Origin: Candidatus Latescibacterota bacterium
GTDB taxonomy: Bacteria; JAAXHH01
Assembly: GCA_022822725.1 (NCBI GenBank)
Contig: JAJEAN010000007.1
Coordinates: forward strand, 1,809,045-1,873,044
Length of the DNA: 64,000 bases
Direction of reading: 5' to 3'
A program made the position numbers and the translations under genes. Shown here one piece after another: positions 34,067 through 44,197 of this stretch. The first letter of the stretch is position 1, and every line of letters begins with the position of its first letter. Below the pieces are notes generated by a model. The model was not told where the DNA came from. It ran no database searches and was given only the letters and a program-made list of their open reading frames with translations.

Positions 34067-34192
34067 GTCCGCCCCACAGGCGAAGGAACCGCGTGCCGCC
34101 GGGGACGTTTAATCCTGTACATTCAATGAAAACCAAATAGAATCTACATGAGCAAAAAAGCAAACTTCAGCCTGTTCGGCAGGAGAGGAACG

Positions 34193-35035
34193 ATGGTGCG
34201 CCTGAGCCTGTTAACCGCGGGTTTCGCGCTGGTCGCGATGGCCTGCGAGTCCGGTCCTACCATAGACAGCACGGACGTCGAGACCTTCGACGCATCCTTC
34301 GCCGAGGTCAAGGCCACCCTATCCGAGGACGACCAGGCAAGACTCGACGACGTGCTGGATGCGTTCGAGTACCTCTACAGCGACAACGTGATCAGCTCGC
34401 TGAACGCGTCAGACGCCATACGAAACCGGATCCGCGGCCGGTTGGACGGCATGAACGCGGGGGACATCTTCGCGGAGTGGAACGAGCGGGTAAATAACGC
34501 CATCGAGGCTCTCGAAGAGAAGAAGGAAAACACGGATTCCGCCATGGAAAGTCTCAAGGACGTGAGGGTGCGGGGGGTCGAGTACTACGTGCAACGGGGC
34601 CAGTCCGTCGTGAAACTCTCCATACACAACCGGACGGAACACCGGATCTCGAAGGTGTACTTCCGCGGATCGCTTATGAGAAGGGAACCCCGGAAGTGGA
34701 TCCTGGACGACGATTTCAACTACAATATCCGTCACACGGAAGGCAAGGACCTGGCGCCGGACGAACGAGCCGTTTGGAACTTCGCCCTGCTCTCTCCGGT
34801 CTGGAGGAACGCCCCGGAGGACGTGGACAACCACTACCTGAACGTGATCGTCACGCGGATCGACGGTGCGCCCGAGCAACCCATCTACGATGCCTACACC
34901 GACCGTTTCACACCCAAGGACAGGAGACGGCTCCGGAGGCTGATTTCCCTCAAGGATTCCATCGGCACGTTCGAACCTGAGCTGGAGAACGAGACCGAGT
35001 CCCAGACCGAGTCCGAAGAAACCTCATCCCTTTAA
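34193..35035 (+). CDS. Predicted lipoprotein of unknown function
   Basis: 280 residues. The N-terminus MVRLSLLTAGFALVAMAC is a lipoprotein signal with a MAC lipobox. The first part is helical and charged (VDNAIEALEEKKE-like segments near residue 105); the middle is beta-rich (VRGVEYYVQRGQSVVKLSIH). The family is not certain; it resembles DUF6694-like envelope proteins. ATG 34193 is favoured by AGGAGAGG just upstream, over ATG 34148. The C-terminus ends in a Glu/Ser/Thr tail built from a 12-bp repeat (ETESQTESEE). Confidence 0.7.
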   Translation: MVRLSLLTAGFALVAMACESGPTIDSTDVETFDASFAEVKATLSEDDQARLDDVLDAFEYLYSDNVISSLNASDAIRNRIRGRLDGMNAGDIFAEWNERVNNAIEALEEKKENTDSAMESLKDVRVRGVEYYVQRGQSVVKLSIHNRTEHRISKVYFRGSLMRREPRKWILDDDFNYNIRHTEGKDLAPDERAVWNFALLSPVWRNAPEDVDNHYLNVIVTRIDGAPEQPIYDAYTDRFTPKDRRRLRRLISLKDSIGTFEPELENETESQTESEETSSL

Positions 35036-35070: not shown

Positions 35071-35124
35071 AACCGCTCCTTCCGCCTGGCACGCTCATTC
35101 CGCCCGGTCCGCTCATCCCGCCTG
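35071..35124. repeat. 18-bp tandem repeat spanning the channel-gene stop
   Basis: Three units (35071-35088, 35089-35106, 35107-35124) share the core ccgctcattccgcctg. The stop of the minus-strand channel gene (complement of 35113-35115) is inside the third unit. An identical in-frame stop recurs in the second unit, as an 18-bp unit keeps the frame. Confidence 0.88.
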
Positions 35125-35961
35125 GTCGATATACCGGTCCACCGTATCGGCGAAGATCAGGAATTGCGGGTTGCTGCGGTGGGTCTCCCGCAGCGCCTTC
35201 ACCGAACGGCCTTCCGCCCCCTCCTCGTGAACGCCCCGGCAGTACGCCTCCATCAATGCAGGTTCCAGGGGTTGCCGGGAGTCGTGGAAGCTGTCCGCGA
35301 AAAACCCGAAAATCATGCCCACGATACCGATGCCCACCATCATCATCAGGACGGTGGCCCCCTGTCCCAGGGGTGTGACGGGGTACTTGTCCCCGTACCC
35401 CACCGTGGTGGAGGTCACCACGGCCCACCAGATGCTGTCGCCGTAGACATTGAATACATCCGGCTGGGCGCGGCGTTCCACCTCGTAGATCACGGTGGAA
35501 CTGATCATCAGGTACATGATGGTGATGAGGAAGATGGGGATGACCCGGACGCGATTGTGATACATGGACCGGGCAAATTCCGCCAGCTTGGGGCTGTACC
35601 GGAACATCTTGAGCAGGCGGAGCGTCCGCGCGCCGCGCACCAGGCCGAGCTGCTCCTGGGTCAGGCCGGGATAGAATCCGATCCAGAAGGGCAGGATGCT
35701 GACCAGGTCGATCAGCCCGAGCCCACTGAACAGGTACTTCCCCTTTCGCGGTGCCAGCTTTATGCGCAGCGCGTATTCCAGGGTGAAGATCCCGGCGATG
35801 ACCCGTTCGAACCAGATGAACCCCACCCATGCGCCGGCGTCAAGGCTACTGCGTGTCTGGGTATACTGGAGCTCGATGAAATAGAGGATCATGTTGACGG
35901 CCAGTACGTAGGGACCGAAACGGTGTACGGCCGAAAGGAGGGAGGGCAGGATTCCCGGCAT
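35113..35961 (-). CDS. Voltage-gated-type potassium channel
   Basis: 282 residues, six-helix channel. An S4-like segment RGARTLRLLKMFRYSP carries regularly spaced Arg/Lys, and the pore has the selectivity filter TTVGYGD in VVTSTTVGYGDKYPVTPLG. This indicates K+ conduction in the inner membrane. The C-terminal tail is short. A strong AGGAGG site lies 7 bp before the ATG. It is the last gene of the minus-strand run TAXI-YjfK-PspA-channel, separated from the PspA gene by 118 bp with an inverted repeat. Confidence 0.92.
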   Translation of the reverse strand: MPGILPSLLSAVHRFGPYVLAVNMILYFIELQYTQTRSSLDAGAWVGFIWFERVIAGIFTLEYALRIKLAPRKGKYLFSGLGLIDLVSILPFWIGFYPGLTQEQLGLVRGARTLRLLKMFRYSPKLAEFARSMYHNRVRVIPIFLITIMYLMISSTVIYEVERRAQPDVFNVYGDSIWWAVVTSTTVGYGDKYPVTPLGQGATVLMMMVGIGIVGMIFGFFADSFHDSRQPLEPALMEAYCRGVHEEGAEGRSVKALRETHRSNPQFLIFADTVDRYIDQAG

Positions 35962-35982
35962 GGTTTGCCTCCTGGGAGTATG

Positions 35983-36030
35983 CGGTGGGCTTTCCTGATT
36001 GTGTTAGACTTATATAAGAAAGGCCCACCG
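35983..36030. repeat. Inverted repeat between the PspA-like and channel genes
   Basis: Arms cggtgggctttc (35983-35994) and gaaaggcccaccg (36018-36030) pair with one bulged base around a 23-base AT-rich loop. There is no U-run directly after it, so attenuation, RNA processing or a protein site are all possible. It could set the channel's expression relative to the upstream genes. Confidence 0.5.
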
Positions 36031-36079
36031 TCCGCTTATTGCATCGGGTGAGCCTTTGAATTCAGGTACTGCGACGGTT

Positions 36080-36850
36080 TCAGGACTTTCTGGAACGCAG
36101 GGCCGCCAGCCGGTCCCGCGTCGACGAAGCCGGAAGCGCGGGTTTTTCGGCCGCTTCCAGGGCCGCCGCGATGTTCGGATCGTCGGTGATTTCGGTCTGG
36201 CCGAAGGCACCGATCTTCAGCTCCGCGGCACGGGAGGTCGTTTCCGCCTTCTCCGTCTCCTTGTCCATGGCGTTCAGGGCCGTGTCGAGCCCACCCAGTG
36301 AACTGCTCAGCCCGGCGGCCTGCCTCACGCCTTCGGCGCGTTCGAGGGCCCGTTCCTTCTTCATCCTGGCCTGCTCCATCTTGCGCTGGGCCTGCTTGAG
36401 CTGGACCTGTGCCTGCTTGAGTTTCTCCGCCGCCACATCGTAGGCCTGGCGCAGTTCGGTCGCGAAGGCCTCCGCCTCCTTGTCCTCCTGGCGTTCCCGT
36501 TCGATCTCCGGATTCAGACGCTCCAGTTCCGCGACCAGCTTTTCCAGGCTCTCCTCCAGCTTGGGACGTGCTCCCTCTTCCGCCCCTTCGAGCTGGCCTT
36601 CGATCCGTTCGGCGGCGGCCAGGTACCGGTCGTACTGGGTAAGCAGCGCCTGCGTCTCCTCATGGTCCTTCTTCACGTCCATCTCGGCCTTGCCGACCCG
36701 CTTTCCGAGCTTGTCGAGCTCCTCTTCCATGAGGGAGATCTGCGCCTCGGAGGCGGTCTCCGGGTCGAACGCCACCACGGCCTGGGTGAAGGACTCCAGG
36801 GCGTTGCCGGCCTGTTTCTTGCCGACACGGGATAGAAATCGCCAGATCAT
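36080..36850 (-). CDS. PspA/IM30-family protein (YjfJ-like)
   Basis: 256 residues, almost entirely coiled coil, with the family N-terminus MIWRFLSRVGKKQAGNALES. Later helices are KLKQAQVQLKQAQRKMEQAR and ERAEGVRQAAGLSSSLGGLD. PspA/IM30 proteins are bacterial ESCRT-III relatives that bind and stabilise the inner membrane. The pairing with a DUF2491 gene 17 bp upstream is the YjfJ-YjfK arrangement. The C-terminal 40 residues (ALEAAEKPALPASSTRDRLA) look flexible. Confidence 0.82.
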   Translation of the reverse strand: MIWRFLSRVGKKQAGNALESFTQAVVAFDPETASEAQISLMEEELDKLGKRVGKAEMDVKKDHEETQALLTQYDRYLAAAERIEGQLEGAEEGARPKLEESLEKLVAELERLNPEIERERQEDKEAEAFATELRQAYDVAAEKLKQAQVQLKQAQRKMEQARMKKERALERAEGVRQAAGLSSSLGGLDTALNAMDKETEKAETTSRAAELKIGAFGQTEITDDPNIAAALEAAEKPALPASSTRDRLAALRSRKS

Positions 36851-36867
36851 GTCTTGTCCTTTCGCGT

Positions 36868-37569
36868 TTAAATAACCTTGACTTCCTCGAGCATCAGTTC
36901 CACGCCCAGGTACAGTTCTATAACGCCGTCGCCCGCGCTGATCAACAGGAATTCGTCCACGCGTTCAGGATCTTCCGGGTTCCGGGGATCCCCGCTCGCA
37001 ACCCGGAAGTAGGACATGGCCTGCTGGGTTTCCTCGAAGACCTGCTCGCCGAACGCGTCGCGGATGATGCGTTCGTTGACCTGTACCGGATCAGACTGCC
37101 CGTCGCCGTCCATCCATTCCCGCTGGTAGCTTCGTTCCTCTCCCTCGCCGTGCAGCACCTCCGGGGATCCGATGATGCCGTTCTCGCCGTTCAGCCATTG
37201 TTTCCAGATCTCCTCGGAGTGGGGATACAGATCCCGGTCGAGCACGTACAGGCGGCATTCCACGGGTTCTCCGTGATCGGACACCACCTGGAGGAAGGCC
37301 GAGGTGCCCTGGAGATAGCACCGGTAGGCCATGGCCCCCTCGCCGAGGTCGATCTTTCCGATCGCCTCGATGGACAGGGGAAAGGACGGAAAGTCGAAAT
37401 GGACGAGGCCGGTAAAGGTGGACGACGCGACGCCGTCGATGTCGACCAGCCGGTCGATGGCGACGCCCAGGGGCAGATCCCGGTCGACCCGCTCGGGTTT
37501 CTTCCGAAAGAAACCGGCCGCCTCTTTCGCCTGCTTCTTCGCTACGGAACGAATGATGTGGAAGCTCAT
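36868..37569 (-). CDS. DUF2491 (YjfK-like) protein
   Basis: 233 residues, probably cytosolic. It matches the DUF2491 layout: basic N-terminus (IIRSVAKKQAKEAAGFFRKK), then LPLGVAIDRLVDIDG, YLQGTSAFLQVVSDHGEPVE and the C-terminal FLLISAGDGVIELYLGVEL. No biochemical function is established for the family, but it travels with PspA-like YjfJ. The ATG at 37569 lies 11 bp after the stop of the TAXI gene, so the genes are cotranscribed. Confidence 0.82.
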   Translation of the reverse strand: MSFHIIRSVAKKQAKEAAGFFRKKPERVDRDLPLGVAIDRLVDIDGVASSTFTGLVHFDFPSFPLSIEAIGKIDLGEGAMAYRCYLQGTSAFLQVVSDHGEPVECRLYVLDRDLYPHSEEIWKQWLNGENGIIGSPEVLHGEGEERSYQREWMDGDGQSDPVQVNERIIRDAFGEQVFEETQQAMSYFRVASGDPRNPEDPERVDEFLLISAGDGVIELYLGVELMLEEVKVI

Positions 37570-37580
37570 CGGGCCCTGCG

Positions 37581-39407
37581 CTACTCCTCGCCCACGATGG
37601 GCTTGATGTCGTCGATGGACCGCCACAGGGCGTCTTCGAACAAGGTCATCGGCTTGCTGCCATAGGTATCCACCCACTGCTTGGACAGGATCAGGATGGC
37701 GTCCACCGTCAGCGTCTCCACGCTGCTGTCGAAATAGCCGAAGAGCCAGCCTTCCTGCAGCTCGGGATAGGTCTCGTGGGGGATCGTGGCCACCTCGTAG
37801 ATCGTGTTGCCGAACTGGTCCACGGCCGTACTGAAATAGTGCTCGTCCACGGCGACCATGCTCAACTGCAGGCCGTACTGCCGGTCCGCTTCCTTGAGCA
37901 GTTCCGAGTTAAGGCCGGCGACGAAAAGCATGACCGCGTCGGCGTTCTCCGCCACCTGGCTCAACGCTTCCTCGTAGCTGGCGAACCGTGTATTGAATTC
38001 ACCGTACCTCGGATCCTGCAGGACGAAGCCCTCCCAGGCCCTGTGCGTCCCCGATCCCCGGGGGCCGACGTACACGATATGGGTGTTCGGATCGAGGTCC
38101 GAGACGCTCGCGATGCCGCCGTCCTCGTTGACGATCAGCTGCACGTACTCGGTGTACAGGGTCGACTGCAGTCCGACCAGCTGGTCTTCCGCGCCGGGGT
38201 TCCTGCGCAGGTAGGAGTTCAGGATGTCGCTCTGCACGAGGATCGCGTCGACCTGGTTCTGGACCAGGTTGTTCAGGTTTTCCTCCGAACCCGCCGTCGT
38301 CTCGAGCATCACGTCGAAGTCCGGAAGATGGCCCTGGAGGATCTGTCCGAACCGGTGGTAGTTGCCGTTCGCCACGCCCGTATTCACCGTAATACGGGGT
38401 TGATTCGGATCGGCGGTGGCCACGACTTCGGCGGCCAGGGCGATCTGCGGTGTCACTCCGGGCGGCAGGTAATCGGGATCCCTGGGTGTGCCTTCCAGCG
38501 TGGCGACCTGCTTGTCCAGCTCTTCCAGTTTGGCGCGCAGTTCTTCGTTGTCCTCGGCCAGGCGCTCGGCCTCGCCGCGCCATTCCTTGTAACCCGGATC
38601 GTTGGCGTGGTGATGGGCCATGGCGTAGTGACGGCGGCTGCTCATCATATCCAGCATGGACCACATGAACAGGGCGTCCCACATGCCGAAACTGGGATAG
38701 GACATGAAGGCGTAGCCAGGTGTCCTCCAGCCCATGCCCCCGTAGTACTGGTCCCGGCCGGCGTAGTAGTTGTCATAGGACGTGCGGTTCTGCGAACCCC
38801 TGTTGTAGAGTCCACTGTCCCGGTAGCTGCTCGTATTGGCGGCCGAATTGGATGACCGGGCAAATCCGGACTGGCGGGACTGGTGCGTGGCAAGGGACCT
38901 GCGGGCCGTCTCGCTCTGGACCCTATTGCCCATGACCGAAGACCGCGCCGTGGCCCGGCCGGTTGATGCGCCGGAGACCGCGCCGCCTGCCCGGGTCGAC
39001 CGGGCTGCGGTGGCTGAAGACTGCTGAGCCGTCGTGCTGCGTGCCGGCGTGGCGGATTGCCGCGTCGTACGGGCCGGTGTCTGGCGCGTGGCCGCCGTGC
39101 TGCTCCGGGAGAAGGGGGATCGCCGGCCAAAGGAACTGCGGCGATTCCAAAGGGACCGCGAACTCCGGAAACCGCCGAAACCGCGGCGGGCGTAAGCTTC
39201 TTCCGGACCGAACAATCCGGCGATCTCCCGGATCGTGCGCTCCGTATGCTCCGAGCTTTCCGCGCTTTTTGTGATCCGCGCCGGGTCATCTGCCGAACGC
39301 AGGCGGTCGGTCATATCGGAACGATTGCCACCCGGGCTTATCTGCAAAAACCCGCCCGTCAGCACGAGCAGGCCGGTCATCATGACCAGTTTCAAATGTC
39401 GAGACAT
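37581..39407 (-). CDS. Exported TAXI-type solute-binding protein with Ser/Arg-rich region
   Basis: 608 residues. A signal peptide (LVMMTGLLVLTGGFLQISPG) is followed by about 150 residues of low-complexity Ser/Arg/Thr/Ala sequence (for example STAATRQTPARTTRQSATPA), a Tyr/Gly-rich patch and a short coiled coil (ERLAEDNEELRAKLEELDKQ). The C-terminal 300 residues form a TAXI-like periplasmic-binding fold (ITVNTGVANGNYHRFGQILQ, then AILVQSDILNSYLRRN). No TRAP permease is nearby, so it probably senses or docks rather than transports. It is the first gene of the PspA/YjfK/channel operon. Confidence 0.8.
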   Translation of the reverse strand: MSRHLKLVMMTGLLVLTGGFLQISPGGNRSDMTDRLRSADDPARITKSAESSEHTERTIREIAGLFGPEEAYARRGFGGFRSSRSLWNRRSSFGRRSPFSRSSTAATRQTPARTTRQSATPARSTTAQQSSATAARSTRAGGAVSGASTGRATARSSVMGNRVQSETARRSLATHQSRQSGFARSSNSAANTSSYRDSGLYNRGSQNRTSYDNYYAGRDQYYGGMGWRTPGYAFMSYPSFGMWDALFMWSMLDMMSSRRHYAMAHHHANDPGYKEWRGEAERLAEDNEELRAKLEELDKQVATLEGTPRDPDYLPPGVTPQIALAAEVVATADPNQPRITVNTGVANGNYHRFGQILQGHLPDFDVMLETTAGSEENLNNLVQNQVDAILVQSDILNSYLRRNPGAEDQLVGLQSTLYTEYVQLIVNEDGGIASVSDLDPNTHIVYVGPRGSGTHRAWEGFVLQDPRYGEFNTRFASYEEALSQVAENADAVMLFVAGLNSELLKEADRQYGLQLSMVAVDEHYFSTAVDQFGNTIYEVATIPHETYPELQEGWLFGYFDSSVETLTVDAILILSKQWVDTYGSKPMTLFEDALWRSIDDIKPIVGEE

Positions 39408-39569
39408 GAGGTACTTCCCCTGTGTAGTCGGGTTGTGTGATCGGATTCTGGCTTCCTAAAGATACAGACAAAGCACCTTAGAAGCAAGTTGCTTACCGGC
39501 GGGGAAACCGCGTGAACGACGCATTAAGTTGCCATTGACCCCGGAACACGTCGGCGGTAACATACGGAA

Positions 39570-40914: not shown

Positions 40915-40950
40915 CATGAGCGCCTGTATCAGCGCCTGTGTCAGCGCCTG
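40915..40950. repeat. 12-bp tandem repeat spanning the stop of a Spy-like gene
   Basis: Three units (40915-40926, 40927-40938, 40939-40950) share agcgcctg. The stop of the minus-strand gene (complement of 40941-40943) is in the third unit, and the second unit carries the same stop in frame. Confidence 0.85.
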
Positions 40951-41378
40951 GTTCTGCCCGACACGATGCTTGAAGCTTCCTCCGCCAGCTTCTCGAATGC
41001 CTTAAATTCGTCTGCAGAGAGCATACCCTTCAGGTTTTCCTTGAACTGCTTCTCTCTTTCTTCCAGTTGTTCACGCAGCCAGCTCCAATCTTCGGTCTTC
41101 GTGGCCTGTTCCACCAGCGCGACCTTCTGAGAAGAGGCTTCCTTGACCACGGCGCGCAACTGCAATACCTGCTCGTCTGTCGTATCCATCCGTACGCTCA
41201 GCACGTGCCAGATCTGGGCGACGGGAAAGGTGCTCACCGCCCTCATTTGTTCCATCATGGCGCTGTTCTGGCCACGGCCGCCGATCCGGCCTAATCCGCG
41301 TCGTTGGGCGTCCGCTTCGTTCACAATAAACGCGGTCATGATCAGGCCGAGTATGGCCAGGTGAAGACGGTAGTTCAT
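40941..41378 (-). CDS. Spy/CpxP-like envelope protein
   Basis: 145 residues with a signal peptide (LAILGLIMTAFIVNEADA) and a helical mature part (TTDEQVLQLRAVVKEASSQK, then LREQLEEREKQFKENLKGML). This is the layout of periplasmic Spy/LTXXQ-type chaperone or stress proteins, although the LTxxQ signature is imperfect. It is the last of three such genes behind an ECF sigma/anti-sigma pair. Confidence 0.65.
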   Translation of the reverse strand: MNYRLHLAILGLIMTAFIVNEADAQRRGLGRIGGRGQNSAMMEQMRAVSTFPVAQIWHVLSVRMDTTDEQVLQLRAVVKEASSQKVALVEQATKTEDWSWLREQLEEREKQFKENLKGMLSADEFKAFEKLAEEASSIVSGRTRR

Positions 41379-41467
41379 TTTTTGCTCCCTTCAGGAACCA
41401 GACCTGGCCATTGCATGCCACGGTCACATTTCATGATAAAATGCGCGGCCGGATTCCAAGGTTGAAT

Positions 41468-41505
41468 GCCGCGGTCGGACCTGGATCCCACCGCGGCAGG
41501 TTTTT
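41468..41505 (+). terminator. GC-rich hairpin with T-run (orientation uncertain)
   Basis: Arms gccgcggt (41468-41475) and accgcggc (41490-41497) pair perfectly and are followed by aggttttt. As a terminator it would act on plus-strand transcription, yet the neighbouring genes are on the minus strand. It may block antisense transcription or simply be a structured spacer. Confidence 0.35.
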
Positions 41506-41571
41506 GTCAACGATCACTGCTTCAGACCATATGACTCGCTTCGAACACCTTCAGCTTGCAACACCCGTTCA

Positions 41572-42198
41572 TCACTGGTTGCGCGATTCGCGGCCGTCGC
41601 GGCCGTGCGATTCACGGCCGTCGCGCCGCCAACGCATCCCGGCATCCCGGCGCCCGTCGCGCCGGTCGCGAAATGACTCACGCAGTTTCTCCTGCTGCTC
41701 CGGCGTCAGCACGTTCTTGAACTCGGCGCGGAATACGGCGCCCCGCTCGAATACGCTGCCCTGGGCCGTCGCTACGGCCGCGGCCAGCGCTTTCACCCTG
41801 TCGATGTCCGGGCTGATTTCACCCATCAGTTCGCGAAGCTCGACCCGCGCGAGCCTGGAGTCGGCGCGAAGCTGTATCATTTCCCGCGTGAAGGCGGAAC
41901 GCAGCGTCTTGATCTTCTCCTGCTGCTCGTCCGTGAGTTCGAGTCCGGCCATCGCTCTCCGGGGCCGACGCGTCCGCACATCATCCGCATCATCATCGGC
42001 GAGATCGACGGCCAGAATGTCAACGAACTCGCCGGACGATCCAGCCGCCGCGAGTTCAGCTACTCCGTCGAGCCAGATAGCCTCCTCGTTCCCGGTCCGG
42101 TCCATCGCATCGAAAGACCAGGCCAGAACATCGATTGCCCAGGCCAGCACGACAATACTCAGTGCACCGGCAAAGATTCCTGAAATGATCTTTTTCAT
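41572..42198 (-). CDS. Spy/LTXXQ-like envelope protein with Arg-rich tail
   Basis: 208 residues. It has an N-terminal signal or anchor (IISGIFAGALSIVVLAWAID), an acidic segment (AVDLADDDADDVRTRR), and then the LTXXQ core: GLELTDEQQEKIKTLRSAFT and NVLTPEQQEKLRESFRDRRD. The C-terminus is Arg/Gly-rich and built from an in-frame 24-bp duplication (41583-41630; GRESHGRDGRES). Proteins of this type bind unfolded proteins or metals in the periplasm. It lies in the ECF sigma operon. Confidence 0.75.
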   Translation of the reverse strand: MKKIISGIFAGALSIVVLAWAIDVLAWSFDAMDRTGNEEAIWLDGVAELAAAGSSGEFVDILAVDLADDDADDVRTRRPRRAMAGLELTDEQQEKIKTLRSAFTREMIQLRADSRLARVELRELMGEISPDIDRVKALAAAVATAQGSVFERGAVFRAEFKNVLTPEQQEKLRESFRDRRDGRRDAGMRWRRDGRESHGRDGRESRNQ

Positions 42199-42361
42199 TT
42201 TGTTGCTCCCTTCATGGTAATACTGGCGGATGTATGGACCACGATCTCCGGAGATCGACTTTGTGCTGCTCTACAGGATTAGACGGCGGACGGATGCCGG
42301 TTATTCCAATCTTTTTGTGCCTGACGCCAAACAGGCGCGGACCGGCCCGGTGATCGACGCC

Positions 42362-42913
42362 CTAGTTGCCGCCGTTATTACCACGCTCCTGCGTTCCGTC
42401 GTTAAGCTGTCGTGATTCGCGGTTGCGCTCCCCAGGCCCGTTACGCTCCCCAGGCCCGTTGCGCCCGTTTGGCCCGTTGCGCCTGCCCGGCCCGATGCGC
42501 CCGTTTGGCCTGTTGCGCGGCGGTCGGGACTCGTGATCACCTGCCCGGCGGAACTCGCGGATGCGTTCGCGTCCCTCGCGTATCCTCTTGATCCGCTCGA
42601 GCTGCGTTACTGTCAGGATAGGTTCCAGGTCACTGTGCAACGAATCGACCAGGACCTGTATTTCCTGTCTGTGGCGCATGTAGTACTCCCGGAATCCGGG
42701 TTCGTGCTCGCCCACCACTTCACGGATCCTTTGCATCTGCGCCGGGTCCGGCCGCACCATCCTGACCCACCGTTCCACGAAGCGTTCCCGGGTCACCTGG
42801 GGCGGAGGTTGCAGGCGGTCCCGGGCAAAGGCGCCCAGGATAAGCGCGCCGCAGACCATGCCGATGATCAATGTGGACAGCAGAATGGCCGCGGTCTTAA
42901 GGTGGATATTCAT
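42362..42913 (-). CDS. Membrane-anchored Spy/heavy-metal-sensor-like protein
   Basis: 183 residues. One N-terminal transmembrane helix (TAAILLSTLIIGMVCGALIL) is followed by a helical periplasmic domain (VRMVRPDPAQMQRIREVVGE, then EPILTVTQLERIKRIREGRE) resembling CnrX/ZraP-type sensors. The tail is a Pro/Gly/Arg/Asn repeat (NGPNGRNGPGERNGPGERN). The start overlaps the anti-sigma stop (ATGA), so it probably takes part in the sigma-control pathway. Confidence 0.7.
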   Translation of the reverse strand: MNIHLKTAAILLSTLIIGMVCGALILGAFARDRLQPPPQVTRERFVERWVRMVRPDPAQMQRIREVVGEHEPGFREYYMRHRQEIQVLVDSLHSDLEPILTVTQLERIKRIREGRERIREFRRAGDHESRPPRNRPNGRIGPGRRNGPNGRNGPGERNGPGERNRESRQLNDGTQERGNNGGN

Positions 42914-43368
42914 AGTTCGCCCTCCGATTCCAGCGCGATGCGCGCGTCGTACAGGTCTTCAGGATACAACTCCTCGGTCAGCCCGAATGACGTGTTGATT
43001 GAGACGCTTTCGGACGTGACCAGGTTGTAGGTCAACAGCAGGACGGCAGCGATTGAAGCGGCCACCGCCACTTTGCGGAACATGTGGGACAGCGCGTCCT
43101 CGAAGGCGAGTGTTGTTTCGCCTGCAGGGTTCGACGCCGACCCGGCCTCGGGTTCCGCCGCCAGGCGTTCCATGACGCGTTGGGAGAAATCCGCCCGGAA
43201 TGAGGGCGATTCCTGGTTTTCGACCAGGCTGCGCAGCCGGACCAGCCGCTCGTATTCGTCGCGCAGCCTGGGATCGCGTCTCATGGCCGCGTCCAGCCGG
43301 CTTTGTTCAACGGACGTCAGGGACGAATCCAGCGACCGGTACAGCAGATCCAGTTCAGACCGTTTCAT
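42910..43368 (-). CDS. Putative anti-sigma factor
   Basis: 152 residues. The cytosolic N-terminus (MKRSELDLLYRSLDSSLTSV) resembles short anti-sigma domains, followed by one transmembrane helix (VAVAASIAAVLLLTYNLV) and a short periplasmic tail. It overlaps the sigma gene and is preceded by GGAG 7 bp before ATG 43368. No zinc-binding His/Cys motif is seen, so it is not a ZAS-type anti-sigma. The role is inferred from position and topology. Confidence 0.7.
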   Translation of the reverse strand: MKRSELDLLYRSLDSSLTSVEQSRLDAAMRRDPRLRDEYERLVRLRSLVENQESPSFRADFSQRVMERLAAEPEAGSASNPAGETTLAFEDALSHMFRKVAVAASIAAVLLLTYNLVTSESVSINTSFGLTEELYPEDLYDARIALESEGEL

Positions 43369-43945
43369 GGACAAGCTCCCTGCTTGAGGAAATGAGCATG
43401 CGTTTCAGTTTCTCCTGGGACCTCCTCAGGCGGGACAGTACCGTCCCGATGGGCAATCCCAGAATCTCGGCGGTTTCTTTCGTCGAGTAGCCCTCCATCA
43501 GCCGGAGTACGATCACGGAACGGAATTCGGGCTTAAGCCGGCTCAGCGCCGCCTGAATCCGGTCGGCCGTGTCGTCGTATTCGGCGCTGGCGGCCGGGTC
43601 GGCGTAATCCAGCTCCGGTGCGTCGTGTTCCCTGCCGGGAGGTGCGAAGGGGACGAAGATCGAACGGCGCCGGCGTTTTTTCAGTTCGGTGAGCGACAGG
43701 TTGACTGCGATCCGGGTCAGATAGGTGCCGACCGACGCCTGACCGCGGAATCCATGCAGGCTTCGATAGAACCGGATGAAAGTCTCCTGCCCCGCGTCCT
43801 CCGCTTCGGGGGTGTTCCCCAGCATGCGGATGACGACGGATGCCACGCGGCCTTCGTATCGTTCCACCAGGGTGCGGAAAGCGTCCCCGCTGCCTCCTCG
43901 GGCGGCGTCGACCAGTGATTCGTCCGTCAAGGCGTCTTCCCTCAT
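43355..43945 (-). CDS. ECF-family RNA polymerase sigma factor
   Basis: 196 residues. Region 2 is AFRTLVERYEGRVASVVIRM with AEDAGQETFIRFYRSLHGFR. Region 4 is LSRLKPEFRSVIVLRLMEGY with the HTH STKETAEILGLPIGTVLSRL. It would direct transcription of its own operon and envelope-stress genes. The ATG at 43945 has GAGGA upstream; the frame is open to 43984. Its last codons overlap the anti-sigma gene. Confidence 0.93.
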   Translation of the reverse strand: MREDALTDESLVDAARGGSGDAFRTLVERYEGRVASVVIRMLGNTPEAEDAGQETFIRFYRSLHGFRGQASVGTYLTRIAVNLSLTELKKRRRRSIFVPFAPPGREHDAPELDYADPAASAEYDDTADRIQAALSRLKPEFRSVIVLRLMEGYSTKETAEILGLPIGTVLSRLRRSQEKLKRMLISSSRELVHETV

Positions 43946-44197
43946 CCCGCTTTCCTCGAAGGGCAGGAACAATATGGTCAGCATCGGACGGACGCTCGGC
44001 CGGCGCGGCCGGACAACGCGTCTCGAACATGCCGGAGATCGATCCGAACGGCTGCCGCTGCCTACCAGTTAGACTCCGCCATCCACGATTCTATTCCCAT
44101 AAAATCAAAAAAGGATTACTTCTTTCAATAGGAACCTGCTCAATGAGCCTGTAACAAGGAACCGGCCCGATTTTGCCGGTGTATCCCCCGTTGCAGT

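Follow-up and report, generated by a model that had tools for sequence, protein, structure and literature searches.

The Yjf operon, represented by yjfIJKLMC of E. coli and its relatives, is the third group of the CesT/Tir-PspA operons, and the occurrence of a K+ channel together with DUF2491, DUF350, DUF1190 and an ATP-grasp ligase has already been described, in a paper where TAXI proteins are unmentioned (PMC11237479). On the whole, DUF2491 is present in 28 of 398 Pseudomonadota genomes, and 24 of these 28 have canonical Yjf operons. A K+ channel lies beside yjfK at 18 of the 24 canonical loci (17 recognized by the filter motif and one by similarity only), and no other channels are found in these 19-kb loci. 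The canonical Yjf channels are of the 2TM type, some of them with a weak TrkA-N match. An ion channel is therefore a usual component of Yjf operons, and not the new addition to the YjfJ-YjfK pair that the first-pass annotation had taken it to be.

A four-gene locus compared with the Yjf operons

The window, which is the whole analysed stretch of 64,000 nucleotides from a Candidatus Latescibacterota genome, has four ORFs on the minus strand, encoding in order a TAXI protein, a DUF2491 protein, a coiled-coil protein (hereafter the coil) and a K+ channel (Table 1). Our ORF check of the window bears out the gene set, order, coordinates and spacings first proposed for it, with intergenic gaps of 11, 17 and 118 bp from the TAXI gene to the channel gene, figures that take the ATG at 37569 as the DUF2491 start.

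Table 1. Features of the four-gene module, in coordinates of the window
Feature	Position	Strand	Basis or remark
Predicted Kv-type voltage-gated K+ channel, 282 aa	35113..35961	-	PF00520; best PDB match Kv2.1
K+ selectivity filter TVGYGD	35389..35406	-	sequence motif
Terminator-like hairpin, 3' of coil gene and 5' of channel gene	36020..36056	-	~11-bp stem, ~-21 kcal/mol
Coiled-coil protein, 256 aa, probable distant YjfJ/PspA/Vipp1 relative	36080..36850	-	hhalign, Foldseek
DUF2491 (YjfK family) protein, 233 aa	36868..37569	-	PF10679
Exported Ser/Arg-rich TAXI protein, 608 aa	37581..39407	-	PF16868, TIGR02122 below cut-off; kept in 14 Latescibacterota genomes
TAXI solute-binding domain	37581..38423	-	Y350, S374, Q392, E420 match VcGluP glutamate contacts
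'GMWDxLF ... HHH..DPG..EW' and coil segment, exported	38442..38756	-	fused to DUF2491 in Azospirillum
Ser/Arg-rich region, residues 71-215	38763..39197	-	21% S, 17% R, net charge +22; alignments
N-terminal hydrophobic segment, residues 5-23, signal peptide or anchor	39339..39395	-	hydropathy
Promoter-like block upstream of TAXI gene	39442..39492	-	near-invariant in 11 genomes; not proof of a promoter

Like the Yjf operon, the locus combines DUF2491 beside a PspA-type coil with an exported Ser/Arg/Gly-rich protein (DUF1190/YjfM in Yjf) and, as is often the case there, a K+ channel. Unlike in the Yjf operon, yjfI (DUF2170), yjfL (DUF350), yjfM (DUF1190) and yjfC (ATP-grasp) are all absent beside the module in the window, where the flanking genes are unrelated; a TAXI domain is present, the coil falls below Pfam PspA, the gene order differs, and the channel is of the Kv type while that of Yjf is 2TM-RCK. 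What is already known is the K+ channel beside DUF2491, and what is new is the glutamate-type TAXI domain on an exported Ser/Arg-rich protein, the exchange of channel class, and a coil outside Pfam PspA. In the literature searched, no paper links TAXI with DUF2491 and this variant was not found.

Related arrangements are seen at other loci. In Azospirillum and Bosea, an exported Ser/Arg- or Ser/Gly-rich region is joined via one TM helix to DUF2491; DUF350 and a coil of the same type come after the fusion gene, and these loci have no channel. The segment just ahead of the TAXI domain is found in two of the 398 Pseudomonadota genomes, each time at a DUF2491 locus. Because of the TM fusion and of this segment, the exported region and DUF2491 likely act together across the membrane. 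An intermediate locus in Indioceanicola includes DUF350, a module-type coil, a DUF1190-like protein, ATP-grasp and a 2TM channel. At a further locus (L084:7977-9014), a Ser/Gly/Arg-rich protein, predicted to be exported and to end in a C-terminal TM helix, has no Pfam match and stands directly before DUF2491 and the coil; judged by its sequence, it is an exported partner without the TAXI domain.

In the vicinity of the module, the plus strand at 34148-35035 carries a conserved ORF that resembles a secreted protein or lipoprotein and matches no family over cut-off; a homologue of it is also near the module in G014, a genome from another family of the phylum. On the minus strand, the genes at 40941-43984 likely form a second envelope-stress operon, among them an ECF sigma factor (43355-43984), an RseA_N-like anti-sigma gene slightly under cut-off (42910-43374) and an LTXXQ/Metal_resist periplasmic protein (41572-42198).

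Predicted properties of the four proteins

The TAXI protein matches PF16868 (NMT1_3) with E 8e-12 and 45.8 bits, over the cut-off of 27, and TIGR02122 (TRAP_TAXI) with E 1e-18 and 67.4 bits, below the cut-off of 84.35. The nearest solved structures to its TAXI domain are TtGluBP and other TAXI proteins (alignment to 1us4). The glutamate contacts of VcGluP include Y45, S75, Q93 and E125 (PMC11574862), which, aligned through TtGluBP, correspond to Y350, S374, Q392 and E420 of the module protein; these four are invariant in ten aligned module proteins from three lineages. The keeping of the pocket residues makes a role as ligand sensor plausible, and the alignment suggests glutamate or a similar solute as the ligand, which is suggestive and not proof since the Tyr and Gln are common among TAXI proteins (78% and 54%, respectively; PMC11574862). 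Although the TAXI domain by HMM and the corresponding contact residues are shared with VcGluP and TtGluBP, the window protein differs in an N-terminal extension of ~300 aa with the Ser/Arg-rich stretch, and its gene has no TRAP permease adjacent. BP0403 of the TAXI-GltS type (PMC12344293) is likewise an elongated TAXI protein with an extra N-terminal domain and without a TRAP partner, but it is a lipoprotein coupled to GltS, whereas the partners in the window are DUF2491, the coil and the K+ channel. The Ser/Arg-rich region and DUF1190/YjfM are both exported and alike in composition and in an RGFG..RSS-like motif; homology between them is unproven, with only 3.7% by hhalign.

The DUF2491 protein matches PF10679 with E 9.7e-19 and 67.8 bits against a gathering score of 25. 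It is predicted to be cytoplasmic and beta-rich (AF2 pLDDT 87.9), and the search of its fold against the PDB gives no convincing match, with TM-scores of at most 0.25.

For the coil, which had been labelled PspA/IM30 at first pass, the label stands only in a wider sense. No match to PspA_IM30 (PF04012) over the gathering score is found for it, nor any at E<=1e-3 in the whole genome, and the Pfam and NCBIfam matches by which it might be named PspA are non-specific coiled-coil matches only. Kinship to YjfJ is given by profile-profile comparison (hhalign 95.1%, E=3e-8, 227 columns), the controls with reversed, block-shuffled and unrelated coils reaching at most 4.2%. The AF2 model, with helices at 2-27, 35-89 and 95-178 and a mean pLDDT of 71.6, is matched in Foldseek by Vipp1 in all nine of the best PDB matches, weakly, as the best E is only 8e-3. 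The predicted N-terminal helix with a long helical hairpin and the full-length YjfJ profile match are like PspA/IM30/Vipp1, the bacterial ESCRT-III-like proteins, whereas a PF04012 match over cut-off is missing. On profile and model the protein is a probable distant relative of PspA/Vipp1 that stays outside the formal Pfam family.

The channel has the Ion_trans domain (PF00520, E 1.1e-27), the TVGYGD filter and an S4-like positively charged segment, RGARTLRLLKMFR. With this predicted fold, filter and S4 charges it has the marks of a Kv-type voltage-gated channel, and its best PDB match is Kv2.1 (7e-20).

Conservation and occurrence in other lineages

Among 16 genomes of the phylum, TAXI, DUF2491 and the coil are present in 14, and a close channel homologue occurs in the same 14; the remaining two (G013 and G015) have neither the three genes nor a close channel homologue. 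The four genes are adjacent in all 14 genomes with the set, with a contig ending inside the block in three. Synteny within the genus extends to the flanking genes, and therefore the 12 same-genus genomes are not independent evidence. The block is also kept, at 56-76% identity, in G001 of another genus and in G014.

Outside the phylum, TAXI (36% identity), DUF2491 and the coil occur in the same order in a gammaproteobacterium, Candidatus Azophilus, with a channel of another class after them, in which SBP3 lobes surround a TVGYGD pore as in the GluR0/iGluR type; its best match is the bacterial iGluR homologue 2pyy. Compared with described channels, the one in the window goes with Kv and that of Azophilus with GluR0, and here the two classes are alternative fourth genes of one module. 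Six more genomes of the Azophilus GTDB family have the same set, making 7 of the 7 DUF2491 loci found in the family. Between the Azophilus locus (L073) and these six loci, the four module genes alone are common, with none of 13 flanking ORFs shared. A small ORF of ~46-53 aa with two predicted TM helices separates the coil gene from that of the GluR0-type channel at five loci (L111, L113, L114, L116 and L073). A third lineage belongs to another pseudomonadotal class, in which 48 genomes were searched and three have DUF2491; TAXI-DUF2491-coil is found at all three loci, and the flanks of one (L085) are not common to the other two. The idea that every TAXI-type module includes a channel fails here, as the channel is absent at all three.

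Overall, the results show a constant trio, in which the exported Ser/Arg-rich protein, DUF2491 and the PspA/Vipp1-like coil travel together; the exported protein has a TAXI domain in three lineages, and a K+ channel follows in two. The clustering is above chance and the four genes are more than chance neighbours. The first-pass annotation had named rare neighbouring of the homologues as evidence against a module, and what we find is the same order in two distant phyla.

Proposed function and rival explanations

Taken together, the module probably belongs with the PSP (phage-shock) membrane-stress systems, as a diverged relative of their Yjf branch. The polycationic exported protein may lie on the periplasmic side of the membrane, where it would sense damage to the envelope or a glutamate-like solute, leaked or external. 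Its state would be passed on by DUF2491 to the inner-leaflet coil, and such a link across the membrane is supported by the Azospirillum protein, which joins the exported region to DUF2491 via one TM helix. The coil may then coat or repair the membrane, and the K+ channel may set or reset membrane potential and K+ content. As the channel classes are interchangeable (Kv-type, iGluR-type and 2TM-RCK), we propose that K+ conductance is the conserved output while the gating input varies. A further reading, which we put forward only tentatively, is that a glutamate-type periplasmic sensor, an ESCRT-III-like coil and an exchangeable slot for a voltage-gated, glutamate-receptor-type or RCK-gated K+ channel make up an undescribed PSP-like class tying membrane repair to ligand-controlled K+ conductance. 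As for the complete sense-and-respond system envisaged at first pass, the cross-phylum order and the plausible sensor agree with it, whereas a hairpin lies ahead of the channel gene and separates it from the other three; the chain from an outside ligand through the coil to channel opening is an inference only.

This hairpin is central to the best of the rival explanations, that the three-gene core is the sole functional unit in Latescibacterota, and the channel is separately transcribed and works alone. In the Latescibacterota loci examined, the 118-bp gap has a conserved hairpin with the form expected of an intrinsic terminator: a GC-rich hairpin with a short T-rich tail is kept in 12 genomes at about -19 to -26 kcal/mol, and the more distant G001 and G014 have hairpins of other sequence at the same position between coil and channel. 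A sigma-70 and terminator scan gives nothing above chance, its loop limit missing the coil-channel hairpin, and Rfam gives no match. Because of the terminator-like hairpin, the channel may be transcribed apart or by partial read-through, and the four genes may not share one transcript. The lack of a channel in the third TAXI lineage and at the Azospirillum and Bosea loci points in the same direction. Against it, K+ channels of three gating classes stand beside DUF2491 in separate lineages, and in the Azophilus family the channel is kept with the module and the flanks are not. We consider a solitary three-gene unit rather unlikely.

Less probable still is an uptake system (TRAP or TAXI-GltS-like) for which the TAXI protein would act as binding protein, with the other genes as incidental neighbours. 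In its favour, TRAP permeases are the normal partners of TAXI domains, a GltS partner has been proposed for one TAXI protein (PMC12344293), and the pocket residues are kept. However, the module has no permease, no TRAP fused permease adjoins the TAXI gene in the window, and the TIGR02123 search finds no TAXI-type permease over cut-off in this genome, which has just a weak match at a distance of 1.3 Mb (one of the 16 phylum genomes has a match over cut-off); across phyla it is DUF2491 and the coil, and no transporter, that remain partners of the TAXI gene. A module for phage defence or abortive infection, with K+ efflux and the membrane coil as effectors, is very improbable: PSP-like proteins and ion channels could plausibly be effectors, but PADLOC gives coiled-coil cross-matches only (at most 19 bits), and the module keeps one syntenic site across the genus, unlike a mobile island. 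That slow genome rearrangement merely holds chance neighbours together, as the syntenic flanks within the genus might suggest, is hardly credible and largely refuted by the same order in another phylum with flanks unshared.

That separate lineages have different channel classes beside the same partners points to a shared function in K+ flow, and the channel variants of these lineages are natural material for testing the role of K+ beside PspA-type coils. In addition, to judge from the Azospirillum fusion, DUF2491 may form the cytoplasmic side of a link across the membrane, and the TAXI domain suggests a definite and testable ligand, glutamate or similar.
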